From the NCBI RefSeq assembly GCF_901538265.1, contig NZ_LR593886.1, positions 2,418,001-2,482,000 on the forward strand: DNA of 64,000 nucleotides, in the 5' to 3' direction. Each line of letters starts with the position of its first letter. The first letter of the stretch is position 1. Source of the stretch: Gemmata massiliana. Lineage in GTDB: Bacteria > Planctomycetota > Planctomycetia > Gemmatales > Gemmataceae. A program made the translations under genes and the position numbers. Below are positions 17,073 to 58,057 of the stretch, one piece after another. The notes beneath the pieces were generated by a model, which was not told the origin of the DNA, did not search any database, and saw nothing but the letters and a program-made list of their open reading frames with translations.

Positions 17073-18782
17073 TCACAATTGAGAGCTGACGGGCTGTAGC
17101 TCAGCTTGGCTAGAGCGCTTGGTTCGGGACCAAGAGGTCGTAGGTTCAAATCCTATCAGCCCGACTCGATGACCCTCGGTGACAGTAGTTGTCACCGAGG
17201 GTTTTTCGTTGACACCGTCAGCACTTACGTCGATTCCGTCCACTTTATTCTGGGGTTCGTTATTCGGCTGTTCGGTGCCAGGAGTGGCCCCAGAAAGCCT
17301 CCCGCGGAATGGAGTCGGTGCAACCTCTGGTGCAACCGAATTGGGAGCCGAGGCAAAATCGTCACTCGTTCTGGGCTCTGTGATCGCACCGGTGGTTGCA
17401 CCGGCACCACCGGTCAGGGGTAGGGTCGGAAGTTTTTCCACGGCCCCGCGGACATCGAGCAGGCGGGTATCGGTATACACGCCCATCGTGAGCTTAATGT
17501 CGCTGTGTCGCATCGCGGCTTGTGCCGTTCGCGGGGCCGTGCCCGTTTTGCTCAACAGCGTGCCGAAGGTCGTTCGCATCGCGTGAACGTCGACCGTGCG
17601 CCCACGGTCGTCGCGCTTCGGGATACCGGCGGCAACCAAATCGCGGTCCAGGATGCGGACTAGGCCCGACGGCACATCAAATAACAGTGCTTCACCCGGT
17701 AAGAGCGTCGGTGTGGGTTCACCGGCCTCGCGTGCGACGGTTTGAACGGCCGCCAACTTGTCGGCCAACCAATTCCGCAGGTCGTCCGCGAGATCGTCGC
17801 GGATCGCAATCGCGTTCCCCTCTCGACTTTTCTCATCGGCCGCGTCCAACTGAAGGAACGCGCTCCCGGCCGTCAAATCGAGTTGCCCGACCGTGAGTGT
17901 CGCCAGCTCGTTCTTCCGTAACCCGGTCAGGACCAGTGTCTTGTAAATCAGTGCCCGTTCGCGCCCGAGGGCTTGCAGCCGGGCTACCGTTTCGGGCTTC
18001 AGGTCGGCCGCGGTTTGTCCTTTACGATTTCCGCGGCGGATCGTCTGGGTGTCGGTCAGCGGGCGGACGGAGGCGACCGCGAGCAGGCGCTTCAGTTCGT
18101 CCTCGGTGAGGGACCGGCGCTGGCGGCGCGGATCCGACTTCTGATCCGCTTTGGGCACACGGTTGAGGTCGTGGCCGACCAGACGCCCGGTCCCGACGCA
18201 CCAGTTCGCGAACGCGATGAGGGATTCGCGGTAGTAGTTGCGGCTCCGCGCGCTCATGCCGTCCTCGATTCGGGCGGCCATCCAGTTCTCCACCGCTTCC
18301 CGGTCGAAATCGGCGGGCGTGGCGAACCCGCAATCCTTGGACACGCACCGCACGGCCCGCAGTACGTTGGATCGGTACGTGTCTGAGACTTCGGCGGCGA
18401 TCAGCGAGCGTGTGTACGCGGCGAGGTGCTCCTCGAGCGGGACCGCGGCTTGTCGGGCCGCGTCGAGGGCCTTGCGGTCCAGGGTGCCGGACTTGATCTG
18501 CTCGCCCTCGCGCTCCCATTTCTTGAGCATCTGTTCCGCGGCCTGTTTGTCGCGGCACTCGGTCGGGCGGACAACGACTTTCCCGGTCGCGTCCCGGTAC
18601 TTTGCGAAGTACGTCGCAGATTCGGTCACGATCCGGTCCGCGCCACCCGTGCCCTTCGTGAGGGGCGCGGTGCGGAGTTTGCCACGCACGCGCCACCGAG
18701 CGATCCGCTCGGCGCCCTTGACCACGATCTCGGCTCCGACCGGAACCGCGCGCGTTGATTGCTTCTTGAACACGGCACCCAT
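17073..18782 (-). CDS. int: tyrosine recombinase (integrase) of the 41-kb element
   Basis: The 569-residue product has an N-terminal arm region, a SAM-like core-binding domain (about 120-215) and a catalytic domain with the first Arg in LTGLRKNEL. Box II is HAMR, the second His is in MRHSDIK and the nucleophile Tyr in GVYTD. After residue 440 a Pro/Thr-rich linker leads into codons read antisense through the att core and tRNA-Pro (the GFEPTTSWSRT phrase). The last 15 residues therefore come from the tRNA 5' half outside the element. In the excised circle the frame would continue into the right end instead (see 58058-58276). It is the last gene of a leftward operon, three bases after the XRE gene. 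Confidence 0.93.
   Translation of the reverse strand: MGAVFKKQSTRAVPVGAEIVVKGAERIARWRVRGKLRTAPLTKGTGGADRIVTESATYFAKYRDATGKVVVRPTECRDKQAAEQMLKKWEREGEQIKSGTLDRKALDAARQAAVPLEEHLAAYTRSLIAAEVSDTYRSNVLRAVRCVSKDCGFATPADFDREAVENWMAARIEDGMSARSRNYYRESLIAFANWCVGTGRLVGHDLNRVPKADQKSDPRRQRRSLTEDELKRLLAVASVRPLTDTQTIRRGNRKGQTAADLKPETVARLQALGRERALIYKTLVLTGLRKNELATLTVGQLDLTAGSAFLQLDAADEKSREGNAIAIRDDLADDLRNWLADKLAAVQTVAREAGEPTPTLLPGEALLFDVPSGLVRILDRDLVAAGIPKRDDRGRTVDVHAMRTTFGTLLSKTGTAPRTAQAAMRHSDIKLTMGVYTDTRLLDVRGAVEKLPTLPLTGGAGATTGAITEPRTSDDFASAPNSVAPEVAPTPFRGRLSGATPGTEQPNNEPQNKVDGIDVSADGVNEKPSVTTTVTEGHRVGLIGFEPTTSWSRTKRSSQAELQPVSSQL
17090..17164 (+). tRNA. tRNA-Pro (anticodon CGG)
   Basis: A full cloverleaf can be folded. 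The acceptor stem is CGGGCTG / CAGCCCG with discriminator A, and the D arm is AGCTC...GAGC. The anticodon stem CTTGG / CCAAG holds the loop TTCGGGA (anticodon CGG), and the T arm is GTAGG-TTCAAAT-CCTAT. CCA is not encoded. Bases from 17121 onward are duplicated at 58277-58324, so this gene is the integration target. The 5' half is unique, and the gene has been restored by the element's own 3' copy. Confidence 0.95.
17121..17168. other. attL (48-bp core, left copy)
   Basis: Starts GGTTCGGGACCAAGAGGTCG in the anticodon arm of tRNA-Pro and ends four bases past the discriminator base. It is identical to 58277-58324, with identity ending abruptly at both sides (TT vs CA on the left, A vs C on the right). 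Confidence 0.9.
17172..17207 (+). terminator. Rho-independent terminator after tRNA-Pro, inside the integrase frame
   Basis: ACCCTCGGTGAC, a seven-base loop and GTCACCGAGGGT form a 12-bp perfect stem followed by TTTTT. It begins four bases past attL, so it is supplied by the element and lies within integrase codons on the other strand. It should end the tRNA transcript before it runs antisense into the integrase gene. Confidence 0.85.
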
Positions 18783-18785
18783 CGG

Positions 18786-19016
18786 TCATTCCTTCGAGGT
18801 ATTGTCCGCTTGTGTTCGTTCGGAACTCGTCAACCGCAACCCGAAATACGCAGCGAGTTTGTCAGCCACATCCAACCGCAGTGAGTTCTTCCCTCGCACG
18901 AACCGGGACAGGCTCGCGCGCTGAATTCCGGTTTCTTGTGCGAGTCGCAGGAGCGGTAACCCGCTTTCGAGCACGGCCCGCCGCAGCACTTCGGAGATCG
19001 ACGTCTCGGGCACCAT
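18786..19016 (-). CDS. XRE-family helix-turn-helix regulator
   Basis: A 76-residue protein that is almost entirely one Cro/CI-type HTH: LRLAQETGIQRASLSRFVRG spans helices 2-3, followed by LRLDVADKLAAYFGLRL. Its stop is three bases upstream of the integrase start, so it should be cotranscribed with int and is the probable repressor or controller of it. A perfect 16-bp palindrome sits two bases upstream of its ATG, suggesting autoregulation. Confidence 0.88.
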   Translation of the reverse strand: MVPETSISEVLRRAVLESGLPLLRLAQETGIQRASLSRFVRGKNSLRLDVADKLAAYFGLRLTSSERTQADNTSKE

Positions 19017-19116: not shown

Positions 19117-19177
19117 GGAACGGGTGTTCCTGGGAATTTGGAACACCCGTTCCTCATACAGCCGGAACACCCGTTCC
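19117..19177. promoter_or_regulatory. three evenly spaced 14-bp quasi-palindromic sites
   Basis: GGAACGGGTGTTCC at 19117-19130 and its complement GGAACACCCGTTCC at 19140-19153 and 19164-19177. Each is a GGAAC-N4-GTTCC dyad. Starts are 23 and 24 bases apart, about two helical turns, so proteins would bind one DNA face. They lie just upstream of the XRE gene and run into the 3' end of the winged-helix gene. The array could be an operator or an iteron array. Confidence 0.6.
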
Positions 19178-19579
19178 GGTTACTTCGGTGCGGTCCGGGT
19201 TCACCCCGCGAACCCGGTACGTCGAGGGGCCAGTCCCGGCGCGCCCGCGCCGAACGACCTTCACCAGTTTCGCCATATCCAGTTCGGCGAGGGCCTTGCG
19301 AACGGCCCGTTCGGTCACTCCGGCGCGCCGGGCGAGGTCCGCCTGACCGGTGCGGGCCAATCCGTTCGGCTTGGTGTCTCGCCACAGGATCAGCCACACC
19401 GCTACCGCACTCGGGGTCAACCCCGCGAGGGTGTAATCAATGAAGCCGTTGATCTCCACGAATCGCCCGTGTGTGGCGCGCGTTCGCTTGGGTTTGGTTC
19501 CCGGAGCCGGCGCGACCGGCGGGAGCATCGTGGCCCCGCGCAACGAGTCGGCCGCGCGCCCGTTCGGTGCGCTCACCAC
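19154..19579 (-). CDS. winged-helix DNA-binding protein
   Basis: 141 residues with a helix-turn-helix region in the middle: SAVAVWLILWRD, then GQADLARRAGVTERAVRKAL and ELDMAKLVKVVRRG, which form the recognition helix and wing. Such small replication- or regulation-associated proteins are common in planctomycete mobile elements. The ATG at 19579 overlaps the end of the ATPase gene by seven bases, so it is translationally coupled. The last codons (TGVPAV) overlap two of the three GGAAC-N4-GTTCC sites. The regulatory target is not known. Confidence 0.75.
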   Translation of the reverse strand: MVSAPNGRAADSLRGATMLPPVAPAPGTKPKRTRATHGRFVEINGFIDYTLAGLTPSAVAVWLILWRDTKPNGLARTGQADLARRAGVTERAVRKALAELDMAKLVKVVRRGRAGTGPSTYRVRGVNPDRTEVTGTGVPAV

Positions 19580-20487
19580 TCACCCCCTTCGGGATCAGCG
19601 GGGCGCCGGCCCCACACGTCGCGAACCGCGCCGGCCAGCTTACCGTCGTCCCGCTCGGCCGGGTCGAATCGCTGAACACGCCCGTCGAACCGGAGGGGAA
19701 TATCCACCGGTTCCCCGTACCGACTCTTCGCGTGCTTCAGGGTCACCGAACCGGAATCATCCACGTTATCACGGACCAGCAGGAACGCATCGTCGGTCCC
19801 GTACTCGAGTTCGCTGGACTCACGGAAACTGGCGAGGTTGAGCCCCGAATACCCGCTCCGCCCGTTCTCGTCGCGCTGGCGCCCGACCGCGGCCACCACG
19901 AGTACCGCGACCCCGGCGTCCGCGAACCCGCGCACGTATTCCATCGCGGCATCGATCGCGGCCTTGCGGTGCGCGTGGTCCCCGGGCGGGGCGATGCGCT
20001 GGATGTAGTCGAGCACCAGTACGTCGGCCCCGAACGCATCGGCCGAGCGCGCGATGTTATCCAGCGAGTACGGCGGGCGCGCGAACGCCAGGCGCGGCAC
20101 GAACTCGGCCAGCGTGTTCATCCCGACCGTTACCCGCTCACCGTGCTCGGGTTTTAGGGTCCGGTGCCGGATCGCGTGCAGGTCGATCCCGGACAACCGG
20201 GACATCTGCCGGTCCATGAGCGCCGCGGGCGGCATCTCGACGTTCGCGACCAGAACTTTGAGCGCGGGCGTCAATCGGAGCGCGTCCACAACCAACTGCA
20301 TCACGAGCGCCGTTTTCCCGGCCCCGGGGGAGCCCCCGAACATGGTGACGATCCCCGGTCCGATCTCGATCCGAGTGAGCGGGTTCCCCGGTTCCGCGAC
20401 CGGGTACAGGGTCGGCGGTTTCCCGGAGAGTAAATCCCCCTTCCACGCCGCGAACACGTCGGCCGCCGGTACGAATGCCGGATTCAT
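19573..20487 (-). CDS. DnaB/RecA-like replicative helicase ATPase
   Basis: The 304-residue protein is a single RecA-like domain of the DnaB C-terminal type. Walker A is GGSPGAGKTA (51-60), then VANVEMP, Walker B is VLVLDYIQRI near residue 150, and AVGRQRDENGRSGYSG precedes a sensor-like ESSELEYGTDDAFLLVRD. There is no DnaB N-terminal domain, so it is short for a full helicase (usually about 450 residues). The ATG at 20487 overlaps the primase stop as ATGA. With the primase it probably forms the element's replication machinery. Confidence 0.85.
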   Translation of the reverse strand: MNPAFVPAADVFAAWKGDLLSGKPPTLYPVAEPGNPLTRIEIGPGIVTMFGGSPGAGKTALVMQLVVDALRLTPALKVLVANVEMPPAALMDRQMSRLSGIDLHAIRHRTLKPEHGERVTVGMNTLAEFVPRLAFARPPYSLDNIARSADAFGADVLVLDYIQRIAPPGDHAHRKAAIDAAMEYVRGFADAGVAVLVVAAVGRQRDENGRSGYSGLNLASFRESSELEYGTDDAFLLVRDNVDDSGSVTLKHAKSRYGEPVDIPLRFDGRVQRFDPAERDDGKLAGAVRDVWGRRPADPEGGEW

Positions 20488-21461
20488 GTAGCACCGCCGT
20501 TCGCCTTCGCGTCGCTGTTCTCGATCCCGCAAACGATGGTGCGCACCACTTCTGTTGGGGCCAGCCCCGAATCGAGCGCGGCCTCGACGAGTAGCGCGTG
20601 AACGAGTTCGGGCGGTGCCCCGTGCTCGCGCAAATCGCCGGCCGCGCGGAACAGGCGCGTGTGGCGCTCGCCGTCCGATGCGCCGTCACGGATGAACGCG
20701 AGCGTGTCGCGCTGGAGCCGGGACCGGCCGGGGTGCCGTTCGGCCGCGGTCACCCGGCGCTCGTGGAGTGCGGTTTCGGCTTCTATCCAATCGGTTGCCA
20801 ACAGGGGCGGGGCGGCCGTCACGTCGGGCACCTCGAACCCGAGCGGTGTGCCGGCCAGTTCCGTGATACGGTCGATCGACAGGTGCATCATCTCGTCGTA
20901 GGTGAGGCGGCGCTTGTGCAACTTGGTCTTCGGGTGGGTGCTGTTCGGCGCGCGGAACAGGCGCACCTTGTCGTAAATGCTCGTGTCGATCACCACCCCG
21001 ACCTCGGCCGCGAGCCCCTCCGCGATCCGGCGGCACACCGCGTTGAACGCGACCGACGGCTCCGGGTTGTGCGTGAGCGGAACACCGAGGTGGAACCCTT
21101 TGCGCCCGCTGAAGAACACCAACAGGTCGTCGTCGCGGAACTCGGAGTACCGGAACAGTACGAAGTTCGCGAGCCGGCGCACGTCGGCGAGCGCGGCGTC
21201 GGGATCGTCCCGGTCCACGTCGGCCCACAGGTACGGGGACCAGCACGGACCGGTGAAGCCCTTCGGAGAGCCGCGCTGGTCGAGGTGAGACCGGAAGCCC
21301 GCGCAGAAGGCGAACGCGGAAAGGTAGCACTCGCTCTCGGGTTGGGCGCGGGGATCGGCGGCACAGTGGGCCGTGAACGCGGCGGTCGCATCGACCAACC
21401 GCCGCGGTTCGCTCACCGGCCCGACCACCCGAAACCCGAACGGGTAGTCGGTGCGGTTCAC
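20484..21461 (-). CDS. archaeo-eukaryotic-type (PriS-like) primase
   Basis: The 325-residue product carries AEP catalytic motifs: LWADVDRDD (78-86, the metal-binding DxD), FFSGRKGFHLG (117-127, the sGx-hx-H nucleotide-binding motif) and IDTSIYDKVRLFRAPNSTH (third motif with Asp and basic residues). The C-terminal helical part is less conserved. Such primases, sometimes with polymerase activity, occur in plasmids and integrated elements. The start is GTG 21461, overlapping the previous gene's TGA as GTGA; the longer frame upstream is the antisense-like shadow of that gene. Confidence 0.87.
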   Translation of the reverse strand: MNRTDYPFGFRVVGPVSEPRRLVDATAAFTAHCAADPRAQPESECYLSAFAFCAGFRSHLDQRGSPKGFTGPCWSPYLWADVDRDDPDAALADVRRLANFVLFRYSEFRDDDLLVFFSGRKGFHLGVPLTHNPEPSVAFNAVCRRIAEGLAAEVGVVIDTSIYDKVRLFRAPNSTHPKTKLHKRRLTYDEMMHLSIDRITELAGTPLGFEVPDVTAAPPLLATDWIEAETALHERRVTAAERHPGRSRLQRDTLAFIRDGASDGERHTRLFRAAGDLREHGAPPELVHALLVEAALDSGLAPTEVVRTIVCGIENSDAKANGGAT

Positions 21462-21979
21462 GGGTTCGGTCCCCCGTCCGTGCCGGCGTCGGTCCCCGCA
21501 GCACCCGCAGGATCGGAAGGGGCGAAGGGGTCGGCCGTCGGTTCCTGAACGCGGATCACGTCCAGGTTCTTGACCTCGTTGCGCTCGGTCCCGTCGTCGT
21601 CCCGGCGCAGGGTGACCGTCAGTTTGCACACCAGTCGGTTCGCGGGGAACGGCTGCCGGAGCTTCGCCGTACTGTCGATCCCGAGTTTGGCGAGGTCGCG
21701 CTTGGTGTACGGGAGCGCGGCCGGGGTGAAGTATTTGGTCACCCACAGGCGCCGGCCCGTGTACTCGCCCTCGAGCACACGGAACTCGATCGTGTACCCG
21801 TCGGTCCCGGTGCGCGCCTTGTCGAGCTTGCCCCCGATCGCGAGCGCAACGAACACCCCCTTGGGGAGCGGCCCGAAATCGTCGGCGGCCTCGGTCGCGT
21901 CGAATCGGTCAAAAATGTCGTCACTGGCCCCGTTGCCACCGGGTAAAATCCCGGTGAGGGGCTTTCTCGGCGTAGTCAT
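21458..21979 (-). CDS. DUF669-like protein, probable ssDNA-binding partner of the primase
   Basis: 173 residues. The central region (GVFVALAIGGKLDKARTG, YTIEFRVLEGEYTGRRLWV) resembles phage DUF669 proteins, which are found beside primases and single-strand annealing proteins. The C-terminus is Asp/Pro/Gly-rich and acidic, like the protein-interaction tail of SSB. AAGGAG lies eight bases before ATG 21979, the strongest ribosome-binding site in this operon. I infer single-strand DNA binding. Family assignment is by pattern only. Confidence 0.65.
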   Translation of the reverse strand: MTTPRKPLTGILPGGNGASDDIFDRFDATEAADDFGPLPKGVFVALAIGGKLDKARTGTDGYTIEFRVLEGEYTGRRLWVTKYFTPAALPYTKRDLAKLGIDSTAKLRQPFPANRLVCKLTVTLRRDDDGTERNEVKNLDVIRVQEPTADPFAPSDPAGAAGTDAGTDGGPNP

Positions 21980-22080
21980 CGGAAAAGGCTCCTTGAGTTC
22001 GAGCGACGGCCGATGGGACGCAACCCCGTCGGCTTTCGCGTTCGGTAGGTCGAAAAATGTGTTGAGGTCGGTCTGTCGGT

Positions 22081-22296
22081 TCACGCCTTCACTTTGCCGG
22101 CCAGCCATTCGTCCACGATGCCCTTGTGAAATCGCACCAGGCGGCCGAACCGGATCAAACCGGGGATCTCGCGTGCATCGATCATTCGGCGCACGTGACG
22201 GGTCGAACACTTCATGAGCGCGGCGAGGTCCGGCACATCGTAGGTGCCGCCCTCCAGTGCGGTGCGCTTCTCGGTCGGGTCGGTGATGGTCGCCAT
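22081..22296 (-). CDS. xis: excisionase-like MerR/HTH_17 DNA-binding protein
   Basis: A 71-residue protein consisting of one winged HTH: YDVPDLAALMKCSTRHVRRMI followed by the wing IPGLIRFGRLVRFHKGIVDEWL, the standard helix_turn_helix_17/Xis pattern. GGGAGA stands upstream of ATG 22296. As first gene of the operon that ends in the integrase, it is a good candidate for the directionality factor or the operon regulator. Confidence 0.82.
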   Translation of the reverse strand: MATITDPTEKRTALEGGTYDVPDLAALMKCSTRHVRRMIDAREIPGLIRFGRLVRFHKGIVDEWLAGKVKA

Positions 22297-22382: not shown

Positions 22383-22497
22383 CGGTTTCCTGATTGTCAG
22401 GAAACCCCGAGTGGACAAGCCGCGACTTGCGAACTCAGCGAAAGAAGTGAGGCGCCAGATTTTCGTCAGGAAACGTTTCCTGATTGGGTTTCCTGGT
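22383..22497. promoter_or_regulatory. cluster of TCAGGAAAC dyads
   Basis: A 10-bp-arm hairpin at 22383-22405 (GGTTTCCTGA-TTG-TCAGGAAACC), a perfect 18-bp palindrome at 22466-22483 (TCAGGAAACGTTTCCTGA) and a further half-site GGTTTCCTGG at 22488-22497. All lie between the excisionase-like gene and the gene ending at 22466. They could be binding sites for the excisionase-like protein or a terminator pair. Confidence 0.55.
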
Positions 22498-24127
22498 CGG
22501 GGTTATCTTTGATCCAGGCGATCGCATTCTTAAAAAGTGATCGGTCGACGGTTTCATCGGCCTCGGCTACCCGAGTGCGGAAATCCTTATCGTTGCGAAA
22601 GAGATCGAGAAGTGCCTTTGGGCCAACACCCGGTTTATATTTCGCTCGGATCAGGACATAAACATTGCGTAGTGCGTTCTGCTGTGGTGTGGTCTTCGGC
22701 CCCTTACCAAGCTTCGGCCGGCCACCGATGTTCCTTGCCAACTTCGGGGAACCCGTCTCGGAGTTGTTCGCGGGCATGTTCTGCGTGGACGTGCTTGTCG
22801 CGGGTACAGATGTTTTCTCAGAAGTTTTGATTTCCTGGCCATTTGCCACACCTGCACCGTTTGTACCGATGAGGCCGTCCATCAACTTCCCGAACTCGTT
22901 CAGCGATAGGGGCCACATGGCCTCAATGTTCCGCTTATGAGAATCTGCTACCTCGCCAACGAAATACAGAAGCGCCAGTTCGTCAAGTTCCTTGTGCAAT
23001 GTTGCACGACACGCCTTAACCAACTGTCGATATACCGAGAGTTCAACCGCCCGCTCCGGAGTCAATCGCCCGCTTTGGGGAGCGTTCAGCGCCATCGAGT
23101 GCGCGCGGTTCGTGAATTCGTTCATCGAACTCACCGGCTTATACGTTCTCTGCCGCCACTCCTCAAATCGCGCGAGTTCTCCCTGGTAACGCATTAAATC
23201 GCGGACGTCACTCACCGTGTAAACGATGGGCGACTGCTCGGCGACGTTCTCTTGATTCGGCTCGGGTACAGCACTGGTTGCTGTCGCCAGTGCGCCGTCC
23301 GCGGGCGCGTCTGTTTGTCGTGGGGTAGGTGCGCCCGGCAGATGCACAGCAGGAGCACCGGGGCAGCCAAGCACACTGACGACTTGCTCAACGGTCAGTT
23401 GATCGACGTCACGTGTCCCGCACTGCCGGATCGCGCACACCTCACCGCGCACCCGGAGCAAGTTCGCGTAGTCGAACACCCCATAAACTCGGTTCACGTG
23501 TGCTTCGAGGAACGGAAACGCGGGGTGATCTTTGTGTTCGGCAGTCGATTCGTACATCCCGGCCTGCAGGCGCCAATGGCCTGTTCCCGGATCGTTGTTC
23601 ATGGAGTCGGCGGTGGCGCGCAGGCTCGCAACCACCTGCTCCACACCCTGGACGGAAAGCAGCAAATCACCGAACGTCTTGATTCCAGCTTCAAACGGGC
23701 GTTGTGCGGAAACTGGCAACTTCGGCGGGCGCTCGGCCGCGTCGAGTGCGTCCTCGATGGCGATGAACGTCATCGCGTCCACTTCGGTGCGGGAGCATTT
23801 CAGTGCGTTTGCGACGCGCGTTCGAAGTTCGCGGAACTGGCTCAGTGTCAGCGTATCGTGTCCGTCGATGTTGAAGCGGTCGAGAAGACGCTCCAGGCCG
23901 GGCATCTGGTCCAGTCGTGGGTGGAAGCGGTATTGTTTGTTATAGAAATCGACGGTGTACGCGGTCGTTCGGCCCCGTTCGTTCCTGAACGAGTCCGCGG
24001 TGAAGCCTGCCTCCATATCGTGGTTATCGAGCGTCGCGAGTATGGAACTCAGGTCGCCGAACGTCTCGACGCGCTCCGGGTACTCGGTCCAGTGAACGGC
24101 CACGTGCGCTTCCTCCTGGATATACAT
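22466..24127 (-). CDS. hypothetical 553-residue protein
   Basis: I recognise no family. It has no signal peptide or membrane segment. The N-terminal half (to about 250) is helical and acidic; residues 255-300 are a Pro/Ala-rich linker, then a helical middle (YQGELARFEEWRQRTYKPVSSMNEF). A Ser/Thr/Asn-rich linker precedes a compact C-terminal domain beginning GGRPKLGKGPKTTPQQNALR, a basic patch that may bind nucleic acid. Its stop codon lies in an 18-bp palindrome. It is separated from the replication operon by 169 bases and divergent from the next gene. Confidence 0.75.
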   Translation of the reverse strand: MYIQEEAHVAVHWTEYPERVETFGDLSSILATLDNHDMEAGFTADSFRNERGRTTAYTVDFYNKQYRFHPRLDQMPGLERLLDRFNIDGHDTLTLSQFRELRTRVANALKCSRTEVDAMTFIAIEDALDAAERPPKLPVSAQRPFEAGIKTFGDLLLSVQGVEQVVASLRATADSMNNDPGTGHWRLQAGMYESTAEHKDHPAFPFLEAHVNRVYGVFDYANLLRVRGEVCAIRQCGTRDVDQLTVEQVVSVLGCPGAPAVHLPGAPTPRQTDAPADGALATATSAVPEPNQENVAEQSPIVYTVSDVRDLMRYQGELARFEEWRQRTYKPVSSMNEFTNRAHSMALNAPQSGRLTPERAVELSVYRQLVKACRATLHKELDELALLYFVGEVADSHKRNIEAMWPLSLNEFGKLMDGLIGTNGAGVANGQEIKTSEKTSVPATSTSTQNMPANNSETGSPKLARNIGGRPKLGKGPKTTPQQNALRNVYVLIRAKYKPGVGPKALLDLFRNDKDFRTRVAEADETVDRSLFKNAIAWIKDNPDQETQSGNVS

Positions 24128-24298: not shown

Positions 24299-25414
24299 AT
24301 GTGGCGCATGCACGACGGCAATCGCGTTTTCACGGATGCCGAGTGGGAACTGTTCGCGGCAGGATTGGATCTGTTATGCAGCTTCGTCGAGAGTGACATC
24401 AGTTCGGGAACGAATTACACCGAATCCGGCGTTGGGGTGTTCGACAGGCTCACCGCGGAACAGAAACTCGCGCTCCTCGCGGACGTGGCTTCGGCCCTTC
24501 GCGACCCGGCGATCCCAATGCCTTTCCATACGGCGGCAAATGAGGGTGCGATTGCTGCCGTATTCCGGTCTGTCTGGGACGCACTGGAGGAGGAACTCGA
24601 CGCACAAGGGTCGGGCGAGAAGCGGACCGAGATCCGTCAGTTGATCCGCGATGCCGCGGCGGATTCGCTCGACCGCCCGAACCGACTCCCCTCGCCCAAG
24701 CATCCGAAGCGCACGGTGTGGAAGAACCTGCTCGAACTCATCGAAGGGCGTGTGTTTTGGGATTCCGATTACGCACTCGACGACGGGCTACTCGACATGC
24801 CGCCGGAAGGCACCCAGGCCGTCCTCGCTTCGTTGACGATCGACCCGAATTACTTCCTCTCTGTTCCGCGCGATCCCGATGAGGCCGGGGTGATCGCGGC
24901 ACGTCAGACGCTTGCGCGGTTGCTCGGTCTCGCGGTCCCCGACGATCACGGGTTGTACCCGGCCCTTGATGACCGGTTCCACGGCCTGTTCGTCGGACCG
25001 TGTTCGCCAGAGGAATTGGCCCGCTGGGAGGACCACCCGTGGGTCCGCGTCGTTAGTTCGGTGTCACCCGACTGGGAGTGTGATCTCGATGAGTGGGCGG
25101 CGCATTTTCGCGACGCGATTCCGAGTACGCCCTTCGTGATCGAACCGGATACCGCCGGGGCGTGGGCGAACATTCCACTGCCCGACGGCATCCGCCCGGA
25201 GCTATTTGGCGCGAAGTGGGTGATCCGCGACGAGGTTCATGGGTACTGGTGTGACGTGGTTGATAACGCCTGGGCGGATGTGGCGGATGAGTACATTCCG
25301 ATTTTCGGGTCAGAAGCCGAAGCGCGGGCGGCCTATCTTCAAGCCGATCACATGTACGACGAGCGGGCCGCACGCCGCCGGGCTGCCGAGGCACTGTTGG
25401 GGTTGGAGGAATGA
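24299..25414 (+). CDS. hypothetical acidic 371-residue protein
   Basis: A soluble, strongly acidic protein with many Trp and Asp residues, no signal peptide and no motif I can name. It is predicted mostly helical at the N-terminus (AEWELFAAGLDLLCSFVESD). It is the only rightward gene between 17 and 33 kb that I accept as a full-length protein. Its stop is three bases from the end of hsdS, with which it converges. A second in-frame ATG is at 24308. Being wedged between the element's unknown gene and a restriction system, it could be defence-related, but nothing in the sequence proves it. Confidence 0.72.
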   Translation: MWRMHDGNRVFTDAEWELFAAGLDLLCSFVESDISSGTNYTESGVGVFDRLTAEQKLALLADVASALRDPAIPMPFHTAANEGAIAAVFRSVWDALEEELDAQGSGEKRTEIRQLIRDAAADSLDRPNRLPSPKHPKRTVWKNLLELIEGRVFWDSDYALDDGLLDMPPEGTQAVLASLTIDPNYFLSVPRDPDEAGVIAARQTLARLLGLAVPDDHGLYPALDDRFHGLFVGPCSPEELARWEDHPWVRVVSSVSPDWECDLDEWAAHFRDAIPSTPFVIEPDTAGAWANIPLPDGIRPELFGAKWVIRDEVHGYWCDVVDNAWADVADEYIPIFGSEAEARAAYLQADHMYDERAARRRAAEALLGLEE

Positions 25415-25417
25415 ATT

Positions 25418-26554
25418 CTACAACTGACCCGCGAACGCTCGGTTCAGCACCGACGGCAGCAGCGCGTCCAGTTCGGTCGTGGTTTCTGCTTGGAGCGCCC
25501 GTAATGAGCCCAACTGAGCGAACATTTTTACCGCGAGTCGCTGCTGTCCAAGTGTTGGCATCGGGAGCCTAAGAGGGAGAACCAACTCTGGACGAACACG
25601 TTCCCTACGGGCGCCCACCCCACGAGTTGGTTCCGCGAGTCGCTCCCAAAACCACGGAGTTCTAACTAACTCGCCCAGGTAGTGAGCATCGGCTTCTTCT
25701 GGGCGACAACGAAAGGTGCGGTATTCGGGAGATACAAACCAACCCGCCAATTTCGGAGGGCATACAGCAATCGCCCCCTCCCAACCCTTCACTTGACTGA
25801 GAACGAGGGCACCTGGGTACAGGGTGTTGAATGATTTGTAAGTCGTGGAGGTTCCAGTGACTGCTTCCTTCGAGAATAACCCCTCACCAAATCCCCGTAC
25901 CCCTACTTGGGGATAAAGGCCTTCTGGTGACACCTGTTGCTTGATCTCGTGGAGTTCAAGGAAGCTGCTTATCGGAACCACCCGGCCACCGGCCATCTTG
26001 CAATGAACGCTGGTTACAAAACGTGATTGTTCTGACTCAATCTCATCCCGCAACCGCCGAGCTTCGCCCACACGCGACGCAATCGCGTCCACCCGAGCCA
26101 CGATCCGCTGCTGTTCAGTTAGGGATGGGAGGGGCATCGTGTAAGCGAGAACATGAGCCGGTCGAATGGCTGCATAGTTGGTCGAGCCCTGGGCTTCGAC
26201 TTGCTCGCGGAATGCTGGGGTGCGGATGAAGTAGTCGAGGAACTGCCGTTCGAGCTTGGTCTCATTGATGCCGAATAGGAAGTAGTGACTGCTCACGACC
26301 GCTCCGTCTAACTCCTTCGGCACAATCCCGAACCCGCCGAGTTTTGCGTCGATCTCCGCAACCAAGAACTCACCGGGACGACAAACCTGTTGCTTTTTCG
26401 TCTTGATCTCAGCGCCAGTAACGGTGTCACGTAACACAACGCCCTGCGCGTGGAGTTGCACTCGGCACCGTTTGTACAGATTCAGGTCGTCTATCTGAAT
26501 GAACTCTTTCCGATGGTTTAGCACTTCCCCGAGGGGCACGAGCGGCCATGTCAT
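25418..26554 (-). CDS. hsdS: type I restriction-modification specificity subunit
   Basis: 378 residues in the standard HsdS arrangement. A first target-recognition domain (about 1-150) ends in the conserved helix LPSLTEQQRIVARVDAIASR. A second one (about 195-330) ends in PMPTLGQQRLAVKMFAQLGS and a terminal helix LDALLPSVLNRAF. Two different target domains imply a bipartite asymmetric recognition site, which cannot be read from the protein. The true start is ATG 26554, which overlaps the hsdM stop (ATGA); the open frame further upstream overlaps hsdM and is non-coding. Confidence 0.9.
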   Translation of the reverse strand: MTWPLVPLGEVLNHRKEFIQIDDLNLYKRCRVQLHAQGVVLRDTVTGAEIKTKKQQVCRPGEFLVAEIDAKLGGFGIVPKELDGAVVSSHYFLFGINETKLERQFLDYFIRTPAFREQVEAQGSTNYAAIRPAHVLAYTMPLPSLTEQQRIVARVDAIASRVGEARRLRDEIESEQSRFVTSVHCKMAGGRVVPISSFLELHEIKQQVSPEGLYPQVGVRGFGEGLFSKEAVTGTSTTYKSFNTLYPGALVLSQVKGWEGAIAVCPPKLAGWFVSPEYRTFRCRPEEADAHYLGELVRTPWFWERLAEPTRGVGARRERVRPELVLPLRLPMPTLGQQRLAVKMFAQLGSLRALQAETTTELDALLPSVLNRAFAGQL

Positions 26555-28092
26555 TGCGCGCCCCCGGTGAGTAGCACCTTGATTTCGCCCATGATGGCCG
26601 CGATTCGCGCCTCTTTCGCGAGGATGCTTTCGACCAGTTGCTCGGGCGGGAGGTGTTCGGCGTCGACCTTGGCGTTTGGGTTCTTGCGGTCCAAGTTGCA
26701 CCCGGTCTCCATCAACTCCGACACGGGCACCTTCCACGCGCGTTCGTTCTCCGCGCGGTTCTTCCACCACGCGACGCAATCCGAAAACGCATCGAACGAC
26801 ATCGGGGCCGTTTTGGTGTACTGCTTGCGGCCCTCCGGCGGCGGTATCTCGTAGTACCACACGTCGCTCGTCGGCCCACTGCGATCGAAGAACAGGATGT
26901 TCGTCGGGATGCTGGTGTACGGGGCGAACACGCCGTTCGGCAGCCGAACAATGGTGTGCAGATTGAAGTTGGTCAACATCTCCTGTTTGATGCGGCCGCA
27001 CACCCCGTCACCGAACAGCGTGCCGTTGGGAACGACGACCGCCGCGCGCCCCGGCTTCGGCGTCTTCCGTAACTTCCGCATGATAAGTTGCAGGAACAGC
27101 AGCGCGGTTTCGGACGTCTGCTTATCGGCCGGGAATCCGTTCTGAACCCCCTTCTCCTCCTCACCCCCGAACGGCGGATTGGTGAGGATCACGTCCACGC
27201 GCTCCGCGTCGCCCAACTCCGAAATCTTCACCGCCAGACTGTTACCTTTTGTTATCTGCGGGGCATTCAGGCCGTGCAGCAGTAGGTTCATCTGGCACAG
27301 CATGAACGGTAGCGGCTTGGCTTCCTGCCCGAAAACGCTGCGCTGTTGGAGCGTGGCAAAGTCCTCGGTCTTCTTCGCCTGCTTCTCCAGGTGCGTAAAC
27401 GCTTCCACGAGGAACCCGCCGGTGCCGCACGCGGGATCGAGGACCGTTTCGCCGAGCCGCGGATCGAGCGCGGTCACCATGAACTGCACGACCGCTCGCG
27501 GGGTGTAGAACTCGCCCGAATCGCCGGCCGCGTCGCGCATCTCCTTCAGCATGGACTCGTACAGGTGGCCGAGGGTGTGAATCTCGTCCGTGCTGTCGAA
27601 GTGGATGCCGTTCACCTTGTCCACGATGTCCCAGAACAGCGTGCCGCTTTCCATGCGGTTGAGCACGCCCGCGAACACGCGCCCGATCACCTGGCGCTTC
27701 GGGTCGGAACTGTCGGCCAGCGTCCGCATGTAGGGAATGAGGCCCGGCCCCTGTTCCCCATTGGGCAGCGGCGTGTCTTCGAGCGAAAGGAATTTGATGA
27801 GGGTGTCGCCCGCGAAGTTGTCCTTGAGCGCCCAGTCGCGCCACCGGTACGGCGCGTCGATGGTCGGACGGTACTTCCGCTTGGCGAGTTTGGCGTCGGT
27901 CTCTTCGGCCTGCTCGTGGTCGTCGAGGAATTTGAGGAACATGAGCCAAGTGAGCATCGGCAGCCGGTCGAGGTCACCGTTCAGCCCGCGGTCCTTCCGC
28001 ATGATGTCGCGGGCGGATTTGAGCAGCGACCCGAGGCGCTGGGCGGTGGTGAGTGGGACCGCGGGCGCCTTGGGCTTCTTCGCTTTCGCCAT
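26551..28092 (-). CDS. hsdM: type I restriction-modification DNA methyltransferase
   Basis: 513 residues. The N-terminal HsdM domain starts at about residue 20 (GSLLKSARDIMRKDRGLNGD). SAM-binding motif I is DPACGTGGFLVEAF and catalytic motif IV is ILTNPPFGG, which makes it an N6-adenine methyltransferase. AAGGA stands before the ATG. With HsdS it methylates the host sites; with HsdR the complex restricts unmodified DNA. It begins 18 bases after the hsdR stop and overlaps hsdS, so R-M-S is a single leftward operon. Confidence 0.95.
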   Translation of the reverse strand: MAKAKKPKAPAVPLTTAQRLGSLLKSARDIMRKDRGLNGDLDRLPMLTWLMFLKFLDDHEQAEETDAKLAKRKYRPTIDAPYRWRDWALKDNFAGDTLIKFLSLEDTPLPNGEQGPGLIPYMRTLADSSDPKRQVIGRVFAGVLNRMESGTLFWDIVDKVNGIHFDSTDEIHTLGHLYESMLKEMRDAAGDSGEFYTPRAVVQFMVTALDPRLGETVLDPACGTGGFLVEAFTHLEKQAKKTEDFATLQQRSVFGQEAKPLPFMLCQMNLLLHGLNAPQITKGNSLAVKISELGDAERVDVILTNPPFGGEEEKGVQNGFPADKQTSETALLFLQLIMRKLRKTPKPGRAAVVVPNGTLFGDGVCGRIKQEMLTNFNLHTIVRLPNGVFAPYTSIPTNILFFDRSGPTSDVWYYEIPPPEGRKQYTKTAPMSFDAFSDCVAWWKNRAENERAWKVPVSELMETGCNLDRKNPNAKVDAEHLPPEQLVESILAKEARIAAIMGEIKVLLTGGAQ

Positions 28093-28110: not shown

Positions 28111-30480
28111 TCAACCGGCGTAAAGTTTCTCTTGCAGCGCATCAACAGCGGCGAGTAACTGACTGGGGCCACTGAACCGGGCCACGATCTCCCCGGGCGG
28201 GCCGAACGCGGACAGCGGCGGCACCTTCAGCGCGTCCGGCAACTCGAACTCGCCGATCCCGTGTTCGACGTACTTGTCGATCAGCGCCTCCAGCACGGGG
28301 CGAGCGGGAGGCCCGAACCCGGCGAGAAACGCGGCGGCACTAGCCCGCAACTTGTCGGCGCGCTGCTTGCGCGTGAGCAGGGGGGATTTGTACGCGAGAT
28401 GGCACAGCAGGTCAAACGGATCGGCGTCCGGCTCCCCCACTTCGGCCGCGAGCACGCGGAGGTCGATGGCGCGCTGGTCGAGTTCTTCCAGAACCGCCTT
28501 ACGCCCCTCGGGATTGGCCCACTGGGTTCGCAGTGCGTCCGCGTCGGCGAACAGGTCGCGCACTTCCTCTGCGGTGAACCGCGGCATATCGCCAACGCGG
28601 AGTTGCTTCCCGCTCGCGTCGAGGTCGTAAGTCACCTCGGTATCGATCCAGCCCGGCCCGCCGTGAACCCTCAGTTTCACGCGCCCGCCCGTCTGTTCGG
28701 GCAGGATGCCAGCCGGAACATTGAAATCCTCGTCCGGTTCCGGGTTCGTGGTGGTTTCGGTCGCGACCGTCTGCCCGTACTCGTCGATCTCCTCAGCGGT
28801 CACCTCGGGTGGCTGTCCGTCGAAGTCCGGGTCTGCGAACTTCTCGGTGGCGCTACCGGTGTAATCGAGAATGTTGAAGAACAGTTTCCCCTTATCCTCG
28901 CGGCACCGTGTCCCGCGCCCGATGATCTGCTTGAACTCGGTCATCGAGTTAACCGGGCGGAACAGCACCACGTTGCGGCACGTCGGCGCGTCCACACCGG
29001 TCGTGAGCAACTGCGAGGTGGTGAGGATCACCGGGAAGTCCTTCTCCAGATCCTGGAAGTCGTCGAGGAACCCCGCACCTCGCTCACCCTCGTCCGCGGT
29101 CACGCGCGCGACGTAAGAACTCCCCACCTGGACCGCTGCCGGTGCGAGGTCTTTGTTCAGGTTGTGCAGCTCCTGGCGCATGATGTCCGCGTGGTCCTGG
29201 TCGGCGCAGAACACGATGGTCTTGTCGTAGCGCCCGTTCCTCTTGAGGAAGTTCGTGAGGTGGACCGCGACCGCCTTGTTCCGGGCCTCGATCGAAATGA
29301 CGCGCTCGAAGTCCTTTGTTTGGAACAACCGGTCGGGGATCGGGTTCTTGTCCTTGTCCTTCTGCCCCTTGTTCGGCCGCCAGCCGATCGCGTCGAAGGA
29401 CGTGACGATGCGGTGGACGCGATACGGGGCCAGGAACCCGTCCTCGATCCCCTGCTTGAGTGAATACGTGTAGAGCGGGTTCCCGAAGTACAGGTAACTG
29501 TCCTTGTTCTCCTCACGCAACGGGGTCGCGGTCATGCCGAGCTGATACGCGGGCTCGAAGTAGTCCAGAATCTCGCGCCACCGGCCCTCGTCGTTGGCCG
29601 AACCGCGGTGGCACTCGTCGATCACGATGAGGTCGAAGTAGTCGCGCGCGTACTGCTGGTACAATCCCGGCACCCCGTCCGCTCCGGCGAGCGACTGGTA
29701 CAGGGCGAAGTACATCTCCCGCCCCTTCTCCGCCTTCCCCTGGATGCGCAGGCGCGTGTCTCCGAACGGCGCGAAGTCCCGGTCCTTCGGGTCGTCGACC
29801 AGCTTGTTCCGGTCCGCGAGGAACAGAATGCGCGGGCGCCGCTTCGGTTCCCCCTTCGCGTTCCAGTATGCGGACCACAATTTCCAGCAGATCTGGAACG
29901 CGACCGTGGTCTTCCCGGTGCCGGTGGCGAGCGTGAGCAGGCACCGGCGCTGCTGCTTGCCCACGATGGCCTGGAGCGCCCGCTCGATGGCGACGCGCTG
30001 GAAGTACCGCGGGCGCTTATCGGGCCAGTGATAATCGGGCACCAGGAGCGCGTCCGTATACCCGGGCGCGAGGCTCATCCCCTTCAGGTACCGCTGCCAC
30101 AGTTCGGTCGGCGTGGGAAAATCCGCGCGCTCGGTCTCGGTGTGGGTGAAGTAGTCGTACTCGATGACCTTCGTGCCGTTGGTCGCGAACGCGAAATAAA
30201 GCCCGAGAATCTGGGCGTAATCTTTCGCCTGCTGGAGCCCGTCCCCGGCCGGGCGGATGTTCGATTTGGCTTCAACCACCGCGAGTAGCACGTCGCGCGT
30301 GAAGTACAGGAGGAAGTCGGGGATCTTCTTCTTGAGGCGCCGGGGCTTACCGCCCGGGAGTACGATACGCCCCGCGGTGATCCCGATCTGCTCGCGGTAG
30401 AACGTGTCGCCGTTCGCCTCCCACCCGGCCGTTTCCAGCTTGGGGCGCACCAGCGTTCGACATGTTTCGGCTTCGTTCAT
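28111..30480 (-). CDS. hsdR: type I restriction endonuclease/translocase subunit
   Basis: 789 residues. The N-terminal nuclease region has PDFLLYF ... AVVEAKS, a PD-(D/E)xK site. The helicase part has Walker A ATGTGKTT, motif II VIDECH, motif III MTATPL and motif VI IIGRGTRCRED. The C-terminal region resembles EcoEI_R_C, which docks to the HsdMS core. ATG 30480 is chosen because GAGGGAG precedes it; an in-frame start at 30525 would add 15 residues. All key motifs are intact, so the system appears functional. Confidence 0.94.
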   Translation of the reverse strand: MNEAETCRTLVRPKLETAGWEANGDTFYREQIGITAGRIVLPGGKPRRLKKKIPDFLLYFTRDVLLAVVEAKSNIRPAGDGLQQAKDYAQILGLYFAFATNGTKVIEYDYFTHTETERADFPTPTELWQRYLKGMSLAPGYTDALLVPDYHWPDKRPRYFQRVAIERALQAIVGKQQRRCLLTLATGTGKTTVAFQICWKLWSAYWNAKGEPKRRPRILFLADRNKLVDDPKDRDFAPFGDTRLRIQGKAEKGREMYFALYQSLAGADGVPGLYQQYARDYFDLIVIDECHRGSANDEGRWREILDYFEPAYQLGMTATPLREENKDSYLYFGNPLYTYSLKQGIEDGFLAPYRVHRIVTSFDAIGWRPNKGQKDKDKNPIPDRLFQTKDFERVISIEARNKAVAVHLTNFLKRNGRYDKTIVFCADQDHADIMRQELHNLNKDLAPAAVQVGSSYVARVTADEGERGAGFLDDFQDLEKDFPVILTTSQLLTTGVDAPTCRNVVLFRPVNSMTEFKQIIGRGTRCREDKGKLFFNILDYTGSATEKFADPDFDGQPPEVTAEEIDEYGQTVATETTTNPEPDEDFNVPAGILPEQTGGRVKLRVHGGPGWIDTEVTYDLDASGKQLRVGDMPRFTAEEVRDLFADADALRTQWANPEGRKAVLEELDQRAIDLRVLAAEVGEPDADPFDLLCHLAYKSPLLTRKQRADKLRASAAAFLAGFGPPARPVLEALIDKYVEHGIGEFELPDALKVPPLSAFGPPGEIVARFSGPSQLLAAVDALQEKLYAG

Positions 30481-30730
30481 GGGCGCGAAACTCCCTCGAC
30501 CCTCCGGTACGAGGTACGCTGTCACGTCCTGACGCCGGCTGGCAGATTGGATTTTACGCGGGGTTCAAGATGACTGCAACGTGCGATGCCATGACGTGAT
30601 CGGCATAAGCATTTGTGGCTGACATACATATGAGCGCCGTGGTACAGCACGTATGCGCCTCGGCTCGTCTTTAAAGGCAGGGGCGCCCGCGAAGGCCGTG
30701 ATCTTTTCGGGCACGCAAGCGGAAGATTAA

Positions 30731-31297
30731 CTACTTTTCTGAAGCGTTGGTTACTGCAACCGGCGCCACGACGTTGACTTGTTTCTTGGCGATATTGACC
30801 TGGAGCACCGGGACCGCGAGCTTGCGGACCAGCGCGAGCCCCTTGACCGCGGCCAGGAACCGCTTGTTCGTGGCATCCATGCGGCGCTGGTGGAACTCGG
30901 CCTGCTTGAAACTCGCGTCCTTCTGCCCCTGGGCCGCACGTAGCTCGGCGTCCTGAACCTGGAGCCAACACGCCACGACGCGCTCGACCAGCACGCGCTC
31001 CACGGGCGTTGAGTTCTCGCCCAACAGTTCGGCGCGCATCAGATCCAGTTTCTTGAGCACGGCCTCGCGGAACCCGACATTGTCTCCGCCCATCGCCTTG
31101 ATGAACGATGACATGACCTGGTCGGCCAGCTCGCCACCGAACATGCGGAGCGAGGCCGGATTGTTCAGCATCTTGCGCACGACCGGGACCGTGCTCTCGT
31201 CCCCCGCCTGCGTCCGCTTCAGAAGCGCCCGAAGCTCCTCCATCGTCTTGGGCGCCTCGGCTTCAGCCGGTGGAAGTGCCGCTTTCGTGCTCGCCAC
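30731..31297 (-). CDS. hypothetical protein, partner of the 31263-31589 gene
   Basis: 188 residues, helical and rich in charged residues (RVLVERVVACWLQVQDAELRAAQ), without motif or membrane segment. Its ATG at 31297 lies 35 bases inside the preceding gene, so the two are translationally coupled. This two-gene arrangement looks familiar from planctomycete accessory DNA, but I know of no function. It is possibly a DNA-associated accessory protein of the island. Confidence 0.7.
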   Translation of the reverse strand: MASTKAALPPAEAEAPKTMEELRALLKRTQAGDESTVPVVRKMLNNPASLRMFGGELADQVMSSFIKAMGGDNVGFREAVLKKLDLMRAELLGENSTPVERVLVERVVACWLQVQDAELRAAQGQKDASFKQAEFHQRRMDATNKRFLAAVKGLALVRKLAVPVLQVNIAKKQVNVVAPVAVTNASEK

Positions 31298-31589
31298 GTT
31301 TCTTCCTCCATTCGCCGCGCTTGTGCTGGTGGAACCCGGCCGCCAGCAGCGCCGCCTGAATTAAGAGATCGGCCTGTTCGTTCAGTTCCGCGAGCAGGAC
31401 GTCCAGTGTCTTAACCCGCTCCTGTGCAATTTTAGCGCACGCTCGCTCGGTTTCGCGCTTGTCGCGCTCGATCGCGTCCAACTGAGCCACGAGTTCGCCG
31501 GCGCGACCGCCCCCGATGTACTCGCGGACCACGTGCCCGTTAACGCGGCGCGAGCGCGTGTAGTACCGACCGCACTTGTCCCAACCCAT
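31263..31589 (-). CDS. small hypothetical protein of the MGWxxxGRYYxRSRRVNG type
   Basis: 108 residues beginning MGWDKCGRYYTRSRRVNGHV, then VREYIGGG and a long charged coiled-coil-like helix (LDAIERDKRETERACAKIA), ending in a basic tail. The N-terminal module, with aromatic and Arg residues, resembles short Arm-DNA-binding or AP2-like beta-sheets used to touch DNA; that is inference. A shortened relative is at 56027-56332. It overlaps the next gene by 35 bases. Confidence 0.72.
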   Translation of the reverse strand: MGWDKCGRYYTRSRRVNGHVVREYIGGGRAGELVAQLDAIERDKRETERACAKIAQERVKTLDVLLAELNEQADLLIQAALLAAGFHQHKRGEWRKKRGEHESGTSTG

Positions 31590-31860
31590 TCTGTTACACC
31601 TCCGCGTGTGCCCCGGTTCGGTCTGATCGAATCATATTGCCATCCGCACTTCGGAGCGTGAGTTCGGCCGTTCGGGCATTAGCGTTTTATTGCGTTTCGT
31701 GGCGCCCAGGATTTTTAAAACTCCTTATTGCCTGAACACTGGCGTACATGGGGTAAGTGACCGAAATGATGATTGCGTTGCAAAGTGGAATCCCGTAGTT
31801 CCACTTACGAAGGGACGTGCGGGTTTCTGCCGAAAATAATCCGCAGTTAGAGGGGTGAAA

Positions 31861-32121
31861 TTACCCGGCCCGGACCCGCAACCCGCATTGATCGCAACCG
31901 ACGGACCGCCGGGAATGTGCCCACATCAAGACCGCCCCGCAGGTCGGGCAGTCGAGCGGGGCCGGCGGGCGCCAGCACGACCACCCACAATCCCGCGCGC
32001 AGTACCAGAACCGCAGCTTCCCGGGCGCGGTCCGTACCGCGACCGCCTCCGGGACCCGGCACCCCGGGCACGTGCGCGACCACTCCACCCGCGGGCGCCC
32101 CATTAGTTCGTAGAAGTTCAC
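31861..32121 (-). CDS. small zinc-ribbon protein
   Basis: 86 residues with paired Cys motifs CPGC, CARDC, CPTC and CDQC, enough for two zinc ribbons of the topoisomerase-C-terminal type. Its start is ATG 32121. No enzymatic domain is present. It lies alone in an otherwise gene-poor stretch, on the same strand as the RM and hypothetical genes, and may be a remnant of a larger DNA-binding protein. Confidence 0.6.
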   Translation of the reverse strand: MNFYELMGRPRVEWSRTCPGCRVPEAVAVRTAPGKLRFWYCARDCGWSCWRPPAPLDCPTCGAVLMWAHSRRSVGCDQCGLRVRAG

Positions 32122-32532
32122 GACGAGCCCTTTTGCGTGGGACTGTTCACGTACCGGACCCGACGCACTTGTGCCGAACGCGCCCGCCGAGCCGGCGCGA
32201 GCAGTAGTGGAAGACGCGGCCGTTGCAGTGTTCGAGTTCCACGGGCACGATTCCGTGGACTACAGCGGAACGATTGTCCCGCTTTGTACCCGAATCATTG
32301 GAGGTGGCGGGGGAACATGGGAGAACCGAGTAGTTAGGGGAGACATGCCGTGCTGGTGCGGGACAGGTTCAAAGCAGGCCAGTCATTCACACTGGCAAGC
32401 CGGAACCCGGTTCGGGTCGGTTACCGGTGGGAATGATAGTGATCACCGCGGTTCAAGGGACGTGATCACCAACACTCAGAAGCTGAATTCGGAGTTAGAA
32501 AATAAGCTGAGCGGCTCACCAGTGGAATCAAC

Positions 32533-32688
32533 GTGGTACCGCCGAACCTCGTCTGGATCATCGTCATCATCGCCACTATCACCACGGGGCTTGTCCGGGT
32601 TTGGGTGACAATGGTGGTGATAGTGGCGATGATCCAGCAGGCTTACCACGCTCACGCTCACGTGCCCAAGTGGTATCTGGACCGATGA
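32533..32688 (+). CDS. possible 51-residue double-spanning membrane peptide
   Basis: A GTG-initiated frame encodes a peptide with two hydrophobic stretches (LVWIIVIIATITTGLV and VWVTMVVIVAMI) around a short basic turn, ending in a soluble His-rich tail HAHAHVPKWYLDR. An in-frame stop lies upstream and no strong ribosome-binding site is visible. The DNA contains a 20-bp inverted repeat that makes the two helices near mirror images. It could be a real small membrane protein or chance. Confidence 0.35.
   Translation: MVPPNLVWIIVIIATITTGLVRVWVTMVVIVAMIQQAYHAHAHVPKWYLDR
32566..32633. repeat. 20-bp perfect inverted repeat
   Basis: ATCATCGCCACTATCACCAC at 32566-32585 and its exact complement at 32614-32633, with a 28-base loop. 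There is no T run after it. It lies inside the small hydrophobic frame. The rest of 32122-33042 holds no gene I can support; it contains the leader of the M16 peptidase gene. Confidence 0.75.
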
Positions 32689-56332: not shown

Positions 56333-56410
56333 TTTTTCTAGGCCGGCAAACGTAACTGGTTCATAAGTGGCCAATTTTGTAGGCTTTGGGTCACCGAACG
56401 GGGATGGCCC

Positions 56411-58002: not shown

Positions 58003-58057
58003 ATTTTTTGCTCCCGGTGTGTACTACGTTCCGCACCATTGCCCCGCTGGTGACGCA

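Follow-up and report, generated by a model that had tools for sequence, protein, structure and literature searches.

A primase-helicase operon at a tRNA-Pro gene

We analysed a 64,000-nt stretch of the Gemmata massiliana genome (the window: contig NZ_LR593886.1, positions 2,418,001–2,482,000 of a genome held in a single 10.1-Mb contig; coordinates below are window positions) that contains an integrated island with a compact replication operon. The original prediction for this operon named genes for an excisionase-like helix-turn-helix (HTH) protein, a DUF669-like protein, an archaeo-eukaryotic primase (AEP) and a DnaB-type ATPase, and all four are present on the minus strand. The first, an AlpA/excisionase-type gene (22081–22296), exceeds the cut-offs of both Pfam HTH_17 (38.5 bits versus 27) and TIGR01764 (37.6 versus 28.8), which bears out the excisionase-like description. 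It overlaps no neighbor and is separated by 101 bp from the DUF669-like gene (21458–21979), which is followed by the primase (20484–21461), the helicase (19573–20487) and a fifth minus-strand gene that the prediction had omitted, encoding a winged-helix protein (19154–19579).

The DUF669-like and primase genes overlap by GTGA at 21458–21461, the primase and helicase genes by ATGA at 20484–20487, and the helicase and winged-helix genes by seven bases at 19573–19579. The three overlaps lie exactly where they had been predicted, except that the seven-base one joins the helicase to the omitted gene, which starts outside 19573–22296. Stop-start overlaps of this kind suggest translational coupling; they say nothing of a ratio, and some relatives lack them, so the proposal that the proteins are made in fixed ratio is not supported. 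In a first set of loci (window included), with start codons chosen by nearness to the start of the window protein, exact −4 overlaps join the single-stranded DNA-binding protein (SSB) gene, as we call the DUF669-like gene below, to the primase gene in 15/16 cases and primase to helicase in 13/20; in a second set of relatives the counts are 23/64 and 40/63, with 28/58 for helicase and winged helix. Overlaps are therefore common across relatives, yet not universal.

The assignment of the primase to the AEP superfamily is upheld by its profile match (PF01896, DNA_primase_S; 32 bits versus 26.8), its fold and its catalytic residues. AEP enzymes follow a catalytic scheme of DxD, then SG-K-G-H, then a later Asp and Arg; in the primase, D81, D83, S118, G119, K121, G122, H124, D159 and R170 are invariant in 17/17 aligned sequences. 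Its AlphaFold2 model (mean predicted local distance difference test score, pLDDT, 91.6) has the AEP fold, and AEP enzymes make up all of the best 50 of its 138 Foldseek matches, led by RSF1010 RepB' and followed by CRISPR-associated Prim-Pol, LigD polymerase, Prim-PolC and PriS. Among the 50 matches listed by VIA-align, Z ranges from 9.1 to 11.6, mostly over residues 1–237, and RepB' stands 49th (Z 9.1, root-mean-square deviation 15.5). The C-terminal part is helical and PriCT-like, with a PriCT_1 match (12.4 bits) below the cut-off. Searching PDB sequences with the primase as single query returned chance matches only; using the primase alignment, PriS was matched at E 1e-8. A Salinibacter phage DNA primase is among its named viral matches.

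The DnaB-type assignment of the helicase is upheld as well (PF03796, 71.9 bits versus 27), and its Walker residues K58 and D160 are invariant in 16/16 sequences. This 304-aa protein has the RecA-fold DnaB_C domain without the DnaB N-terminal domain: its alignment with DnaB is confined to the C-terminal half of the latter, and it falls short of the full-length DnaB equivalog TIGR00665 (52.9 bits versus 385). The PF05037 match of the DUF669-like protein (13.4 bits) lies below the cut-off of 21, but the protein matches a PHROG SSB family (E 2.7e-4) and is modelled with an oligonucleotide/oligosaccharide-binding (OB) fold (AlphaFold2, pLDDT 81.4). A fold search with this model placed PrgE of pCF10 on top (E 7.8e-5, template modelling score to target 0.54), followed by SSBs and RPA domains; a sequence search with the protein's profile gave no match. 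Because the model matches PrgE, SSBs and RPA domains, the protein is most likely a single-strand DNA-binding protein. The winged-helix protein, a candidate initiator or helicase loader, matches a PHROG replication initiation/DnaD-like loader family at ~9e-6 and Pfam HTH_36 below the cut-off, and relatives hold a winged helix at the same place downstream of the helicase.

Next to the operon lie a Cro/CI-type HTH regulator (18786–19016, minus strand; HTH_3, 35 bits versus 23) and a tyrosine integrase (17073–18782, minus strand; Phage_integrase, 44.2 bits versus 27.1; PHROG integrase, 1.5e-31). The 3' end of the integrase gene passes through the plus-strand tRNA-Pro(CGG) gene identified by ARAGORN (17090–17165), the integration target. 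A 48-bp attachment (att) repeat at the tRNA end (17121–17168, plus strand) has an exact second copy at 58277–58324.

Relatives in genomes and viral contigs

A protein search found the primase in 24 of 149 genomes, comprising the window's own, which is counted, and its kin. Scanning the contigs of GTDB genomes yielded 102 relatives; we kept 80, which form the basis of the gene-order counts. Seventy of these are titled Planctomycetota, including Zavarzinella, Adhaeretor, Botrimarina, Aeoliella, Rhodopirellula and Paludisphaera (the module of L232 belongs to a cultured strain, Paludisphaera soli JC670); the other ten are L176, L199, L213, L236 and L238–L243. The original prediction had proposed looking for the same gene order elsewhere, and the order DUF669-like, AEP, DnaB-type, winged helix recurs in 52/80 relatives, with AlpA upstream in 41 of the 52 and an integrase downstream in 34. 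L176, L199 and L213, titled Armatimonadota and Hydrogenedentes, share the four-gene order. At integrase-matched loci, an opposite-strand tRNA gene lies at the integrase 3' end in 31/42 cases, and these tRNAs are of many kinds. AEP and DnaB form one open reading frame (ORF) at 4/80 loci.

Comparing the two related copies that genome G050 contains, the ratio of nonsynonymous to synonymous substitution rates (dN/dS) is 0.11 for the primase, 0.07 for the helicase and 0.22 for the winged helix. Distances between primases correlate with those between helicases (r 0.82, 50 loci), DUF669-like proteins (r 0.76) and winged-helix proteins (r 0.53). The primase-integrase correlation (r 0.56, 28 loci) is lower than that of primase and helicase, and for winged helix and integrase r is 0.20, a value reached in 115/2000 permutations.

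A first scan of viral contigs with a single-protein query confirmed no relatives; the later scan yielded 238, of which 80 were kept. AEP and DnaB are one ORF in 31 of these 80 loci and separate ORFs in 8, and two of the latter, L087 and L088, have the split module together with DUF669. In L087, a tailed-phage contig of 54.7 kb, the module is accompanied by genes for a large terminase, a portal, and minor and major head proteins. A search of L087 and L088 for the portal family phrog_21 was negative; the portal detected by directly scanning the L087 contig belongs to a different family, phrog_113. L088 is a 6.7-kb viral contig in which a large terminase gene (TerL) accompanies an AlpA-like gene, the SSB and primase genes and the beginning of the helicase gene. 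Judged by these relatives, the module is of phage type, because a tailed-phage contig has the same gene order and many viral contigs have primase and helicase as one protein.

Small tRNA-delimited elements

Directly repeated tRNA 3' ends bound 21 distinct elements of 7139–15071 bp (median 8755). L199, with a repeat at an odd distance, and L239, L241 and L243, with distant repeats and another layout, were dropped before counting; the identical pairs L185/L036 and L230/G140 were each counted once, and the window island and a paralogue island in its genome stand outside the 21. All 21 fall within the 7–20 kb given for PICI-like satellites (PMC13376191). Satellite-type parts, namely an integrase, an AlpA-type HTH, an own primase and att repeats, are found in these relatives, some of which lack one or another part. 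A related ORF of 143–208 aa lies between AlpA and DUF669 in 11/21 elements, at the place of the 101-bp gap in the window.

Cargo sits at the element end distal to the integrase and varies between elements, while the replication module is constant. We compared 62 cargo ORFs of at least 95 aa from all 21 elements with PHROG (one of 1637 aa from G006 was omitted and another of L210 added), and among the 25 of 52 matched families listed there was no portal, capsid or tail family. Terminase genes or look-alikes occur in 6/21 elements. L194 and L211 each encode a gpA-type large terminase (78.8 and 83.4 bits in Pfam versus 22.5), L191 encodes a P27 small terminase (49.5 bits versus 24.7) and L197 a weaker relative, and G019 and G006 have HTH proteins that match small terminases more weakly (PHROG E 1.4e-5 and 9.7e-5). 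G113 has a phage-type HNH protein, and HNH families matched up to three cargo ORFs. Restriction or modification genes are present in L222 and L237, and L205 probably carries restriction genes as well (a type I specificity match, one member). In L237, from Zavarzinella formosa, these are an MvaI/BcnI-type nuclease and a cytosine methylase, and the primase is split over two ORFs.

Since most delimited carriers are small and without detected virion genes, and some have their own terminase, they most likely spread as phage satellites. We favor, with a probability of about 0.6, the reading that the operon encodes a phage-type replisome copying excised, satellite-like islands, whose carriers most likely spread in helper particles as PICI and PICMI satellites do. 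In such a cycle, the AlpA-type HTH protein and the integrase would excise a circle, on which the winged-helix protein would mark the origin and load the DnaB-type helicase. The primase, an AEP by profile, fold and active site, would lay primers behind the helicase, the protein modelled with an OB fold would coat single strands, a host polymerase would carry out synthesis, and a helper phage would package the element.

Two other accounts bear on the same elements. They could be plasmid-like, with the module replicating an excised circle whose transfer relies on conjugative mobilisation, vesicles or natural uptake and not on phage particles; this would suit the 15/21 elements in which no recognised terminase was found and the primase's first Foldseek match to RSF1010 RepB', and ICETh2, which is of similar size and integrated at a tRNA gene, is reported to transfer with ICETh1 in transjugation (PMC7693054). 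We judge this route unlikely, if still a serious candidate: no relaxase or transfer gene or transfer ATPase was found among window proteins P0001–P0011 (Pfam, PHROG and NCBIfam, with P0010 scanned in the last two and P0011 in the first two), six elements hold terminase genes or look-alikes, and a tailed-phage contig holds the same module. Alternatively, the restriction cargo of the window, L222 and L237 might mark a defence island in which the primase serves mainly as a barrier to incoming DNA, replication being secondary. This we consider very improbable, as the primase is accompanied by helicase, SSB and winged helix and co-varies with them, is fused to the helicase in viruses, and stays with its module while the cargo changes.

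The window island and known systems

Beyond the AlpA-type gene, the window island continues with a 553-aa protein (22466–24127, minus strand) for which L167, L088 and G140 give short matches (128, 49 and 29 aa) and which has no family at E ≤0.5 in Pfam, PHROG or NCBIfam, and with a plus-strand 371-aa cargo ORF (24299–25414) without a family in Pfam, PHROG, NCBIfam or PADLOC scans. Type I restriction-modification genes follow on the minus strand (HsdS 25418–26560, HsdM 26551–28092 and HsdR 28111–30525), and Hsd genes are all that PADLOC recognised among the window proteins. Next comes an island-end gene pair on the minus strand, U188 (30731–31297) and U108 (31263–31589). In both L079 and the complete G140 element, ~270 bp separate this pair from the right att; in L079 the pair forms one ORF. 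U188 has four matches in the genome, each within such an island or at its end. We set aside U108 as a terminase small subunit: its lone weak match to phrog_641 (E 0.0086) is not seen in the two relatives scanned, nor is there one for U188.

The same genome contains a sibling island at G000:C1:2519662. What it has in common with the window island is the integrase DNA (90.5%) and the right end (89%), and dN/dS against it is 0.19 for U188 and 0.32 for U108. Homology to the sibling stops at 31854, which places the predicted near right end, and the expected right attachment site (attR), at 31855–31861 (unstranded) and the island's length up to that end at ~14.7 kb. The middle of the sibling differs, with its own AlpA-type gene and ORFs that have no Pfam match and a PHROG primase match at E 0.05; from the look of their motifs alone, they may be another primase-helicase pair. 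The sibling's integrase frame appears broken, which makes an integrase dN/dS against L078 meaningless, and no att copy is present at its predicted end. The own-genome paralogue island spans 25.3 kb between 38-bp repeats, the right one far beyond its U188/U108 pair. At the predicted right end of the window island, a small ORF (31861–32121) with several Cys pairs has no Pfam match, and farther on a perfect 20-nt inverted repeat, CAC/ATC-rich (32566–32633), has a match at L078 11286–11327 beside the sibling island.

Farther right lies a remnant U108-type right end on the minus strand (56149–58311, in the parts 56149–56339 and 58005–58311), split by a transposase-like ORF (56411–57406) whose Pfam matches are below cut-off. 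The distal att repeat at 58277–58324 (plus strand) is also the start of a neighboring prophage with integrase, Sak4-like protein, large terminase, portal and protease/head protein genes. Its large terminase is 42% identical to that of L194, and the prophage is a possible helper. We infer that a ~14.7-kb element fused with an older island through loss of the intervening att, and we regard the window copy as an enlarged or fused member of the family, with restriction cargo and beside a prophage, that may no longer be mobile. The proposal of an integrative element is supported, and comparison with relatives lends support to the proposed replication after excision or satellite-like lifestyle.

The surroundings of the tRNA-Pro gene form a hotspot (G000:C1:2435090–2614431, in the window from 17090), where tRNA 3'-end fragments at 2476277, 2519662, 2561334 and 2614385 mark a tandem array of islands and prophage; kin genomes hold similar fragments. 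In four kin genomes, tRNA-Pro has a second integrase type beside it (window 58391–59803; L070–L073), so this one site serves element types that are unrelated. The window also encodes a 1050-aa ORF with sigma-70 domains fused to WD40 repeats (39967–43119).

The enlarged window island without a near attR, the apparently broken sibling integrase and the split Zavarzinella primase, together with a module common to a phage contig, would fit immobile prophage deletion remnants that kept an integrase, replication genes and sometimes a terminase. Against such decay stand 21 compact elements with tRNA repeats and largely the same gene order, the frequent −4 overlaps and the low dN/dS between two related copies, and we think it quite improbable that the family consists of remnants.

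Several observations do weigh against satellite-like spread. The window copy is atypical, its exact 48-bp repeats lying 41.2 kb apart; no packaging gene was recognised in it, and no tRNA-like copy of the near attR was found at 31.86 kb. The best site in 31500–33100 had 23/48 mismatches; over 200 shuffles the best count averaged 24.8 and went down to 20. Among the delimited elements, the majority without a recognised terminase counts on the same side, and in four of the 21 (L191, L195, L196 and L234) the repeats are only 20–22 bp. L088 has cut ends and could be a phage fragment. Of the records that match the primase, 0/35 phage and 0/11 plasmid records cover 80% of it. A phylum-wide profile search at E 1e-20, which scored at most seven candidates per genome, found the primase in only 3/294 genomes, own included, which cautions that it is either patchily distributed or under-detected. 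Finally, in ICETh2 the primase-polymerase Ppol is described as dispensable for replication and as limiting DNA uptake (PMC7693054).

While the enzyme set of the operon is ordinary, a satellite-like family spanning the phylum is less so. We tentatively suggest, with some reserve, that Planctomycetota have a large satellite family of their own, mostly 7–12 kb tRNA islands whose AEP/DnaB/OB-SSB/winged-helix replisome is shared with tailed phages, some with their own large terminase, and in which the uncharacterised U188/U108 module at the island end may have a part in packaging or in hijacking a helper. Among the matches listed in a search of the non-subscription literature, we found no phage-satellite work in Planctomycetota. 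If the suggestion is true, the phylum has a satellite family with self-contained archaeal-style priming, whose helper dependence could be tested gene by gene.

Named satellite families include P4-like elements, PICI, cfPICI, PLE, PICMI, VEIMEs and tycheposons (PMC11389934), and PICI have phage-like packaging systems (PMC10803314, PMC11389934). Like PICI and PICMI, the elements described here are small islands with an integrase, an AlpA-type HTH, their own primase, a fixed integration site and no detected virion genes, and the PICMI model uses PF12728 for the AlpA-type HTH, the family also matched here (PMC10803314, PMC11389934). In PICMI115, deletion of prim lowers circular copy number and AlpA triggers excision (PMC10803314). 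As defined by a DUF3987/DUF5906 primase and a fis site, however, PICMI does not include our elements, which have an AEP with a separate DnaB-type helicase and SSB and integrate at tRNA sites (tRNA-Pro in the window). They differ from PICI and PICMI further in that their carriers are mostly Planctomycetota and that the att repeats of the window copy are 41 kb apart. The Thermus thermophilus element ICETh2, of 11.3 kb, is likewise inserted at a tRNA gene, with integrase, excisionase, primase-polymerase and putative helicase; the accessible description does not name DnaB_C or OB-fold partners (PMC7693054).

RSF1010 resembles the operon in that its RepB' is an AEP primase. Its hexameric helicase, RepA, and its initiator, RepC, are separate proteins. 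Unlike our islands, RSF1010 is a plasmid and is not integrated, and in motif II RepB'-like enzymes carry Gln (PMC5862659), the primase here His. AEP families have been described in bacterial mobile elements, some with DnaB-type fusions, in a paper whose accessible main text does not contain the term "planctomycet" (PMC5862659). The phage AEP-DnaB fusion proteins hold in one ORF the same two domains that are split here into two overlapping genes, and the fused and split pairs together provide a natural series for studies of primase-helicase coupling.

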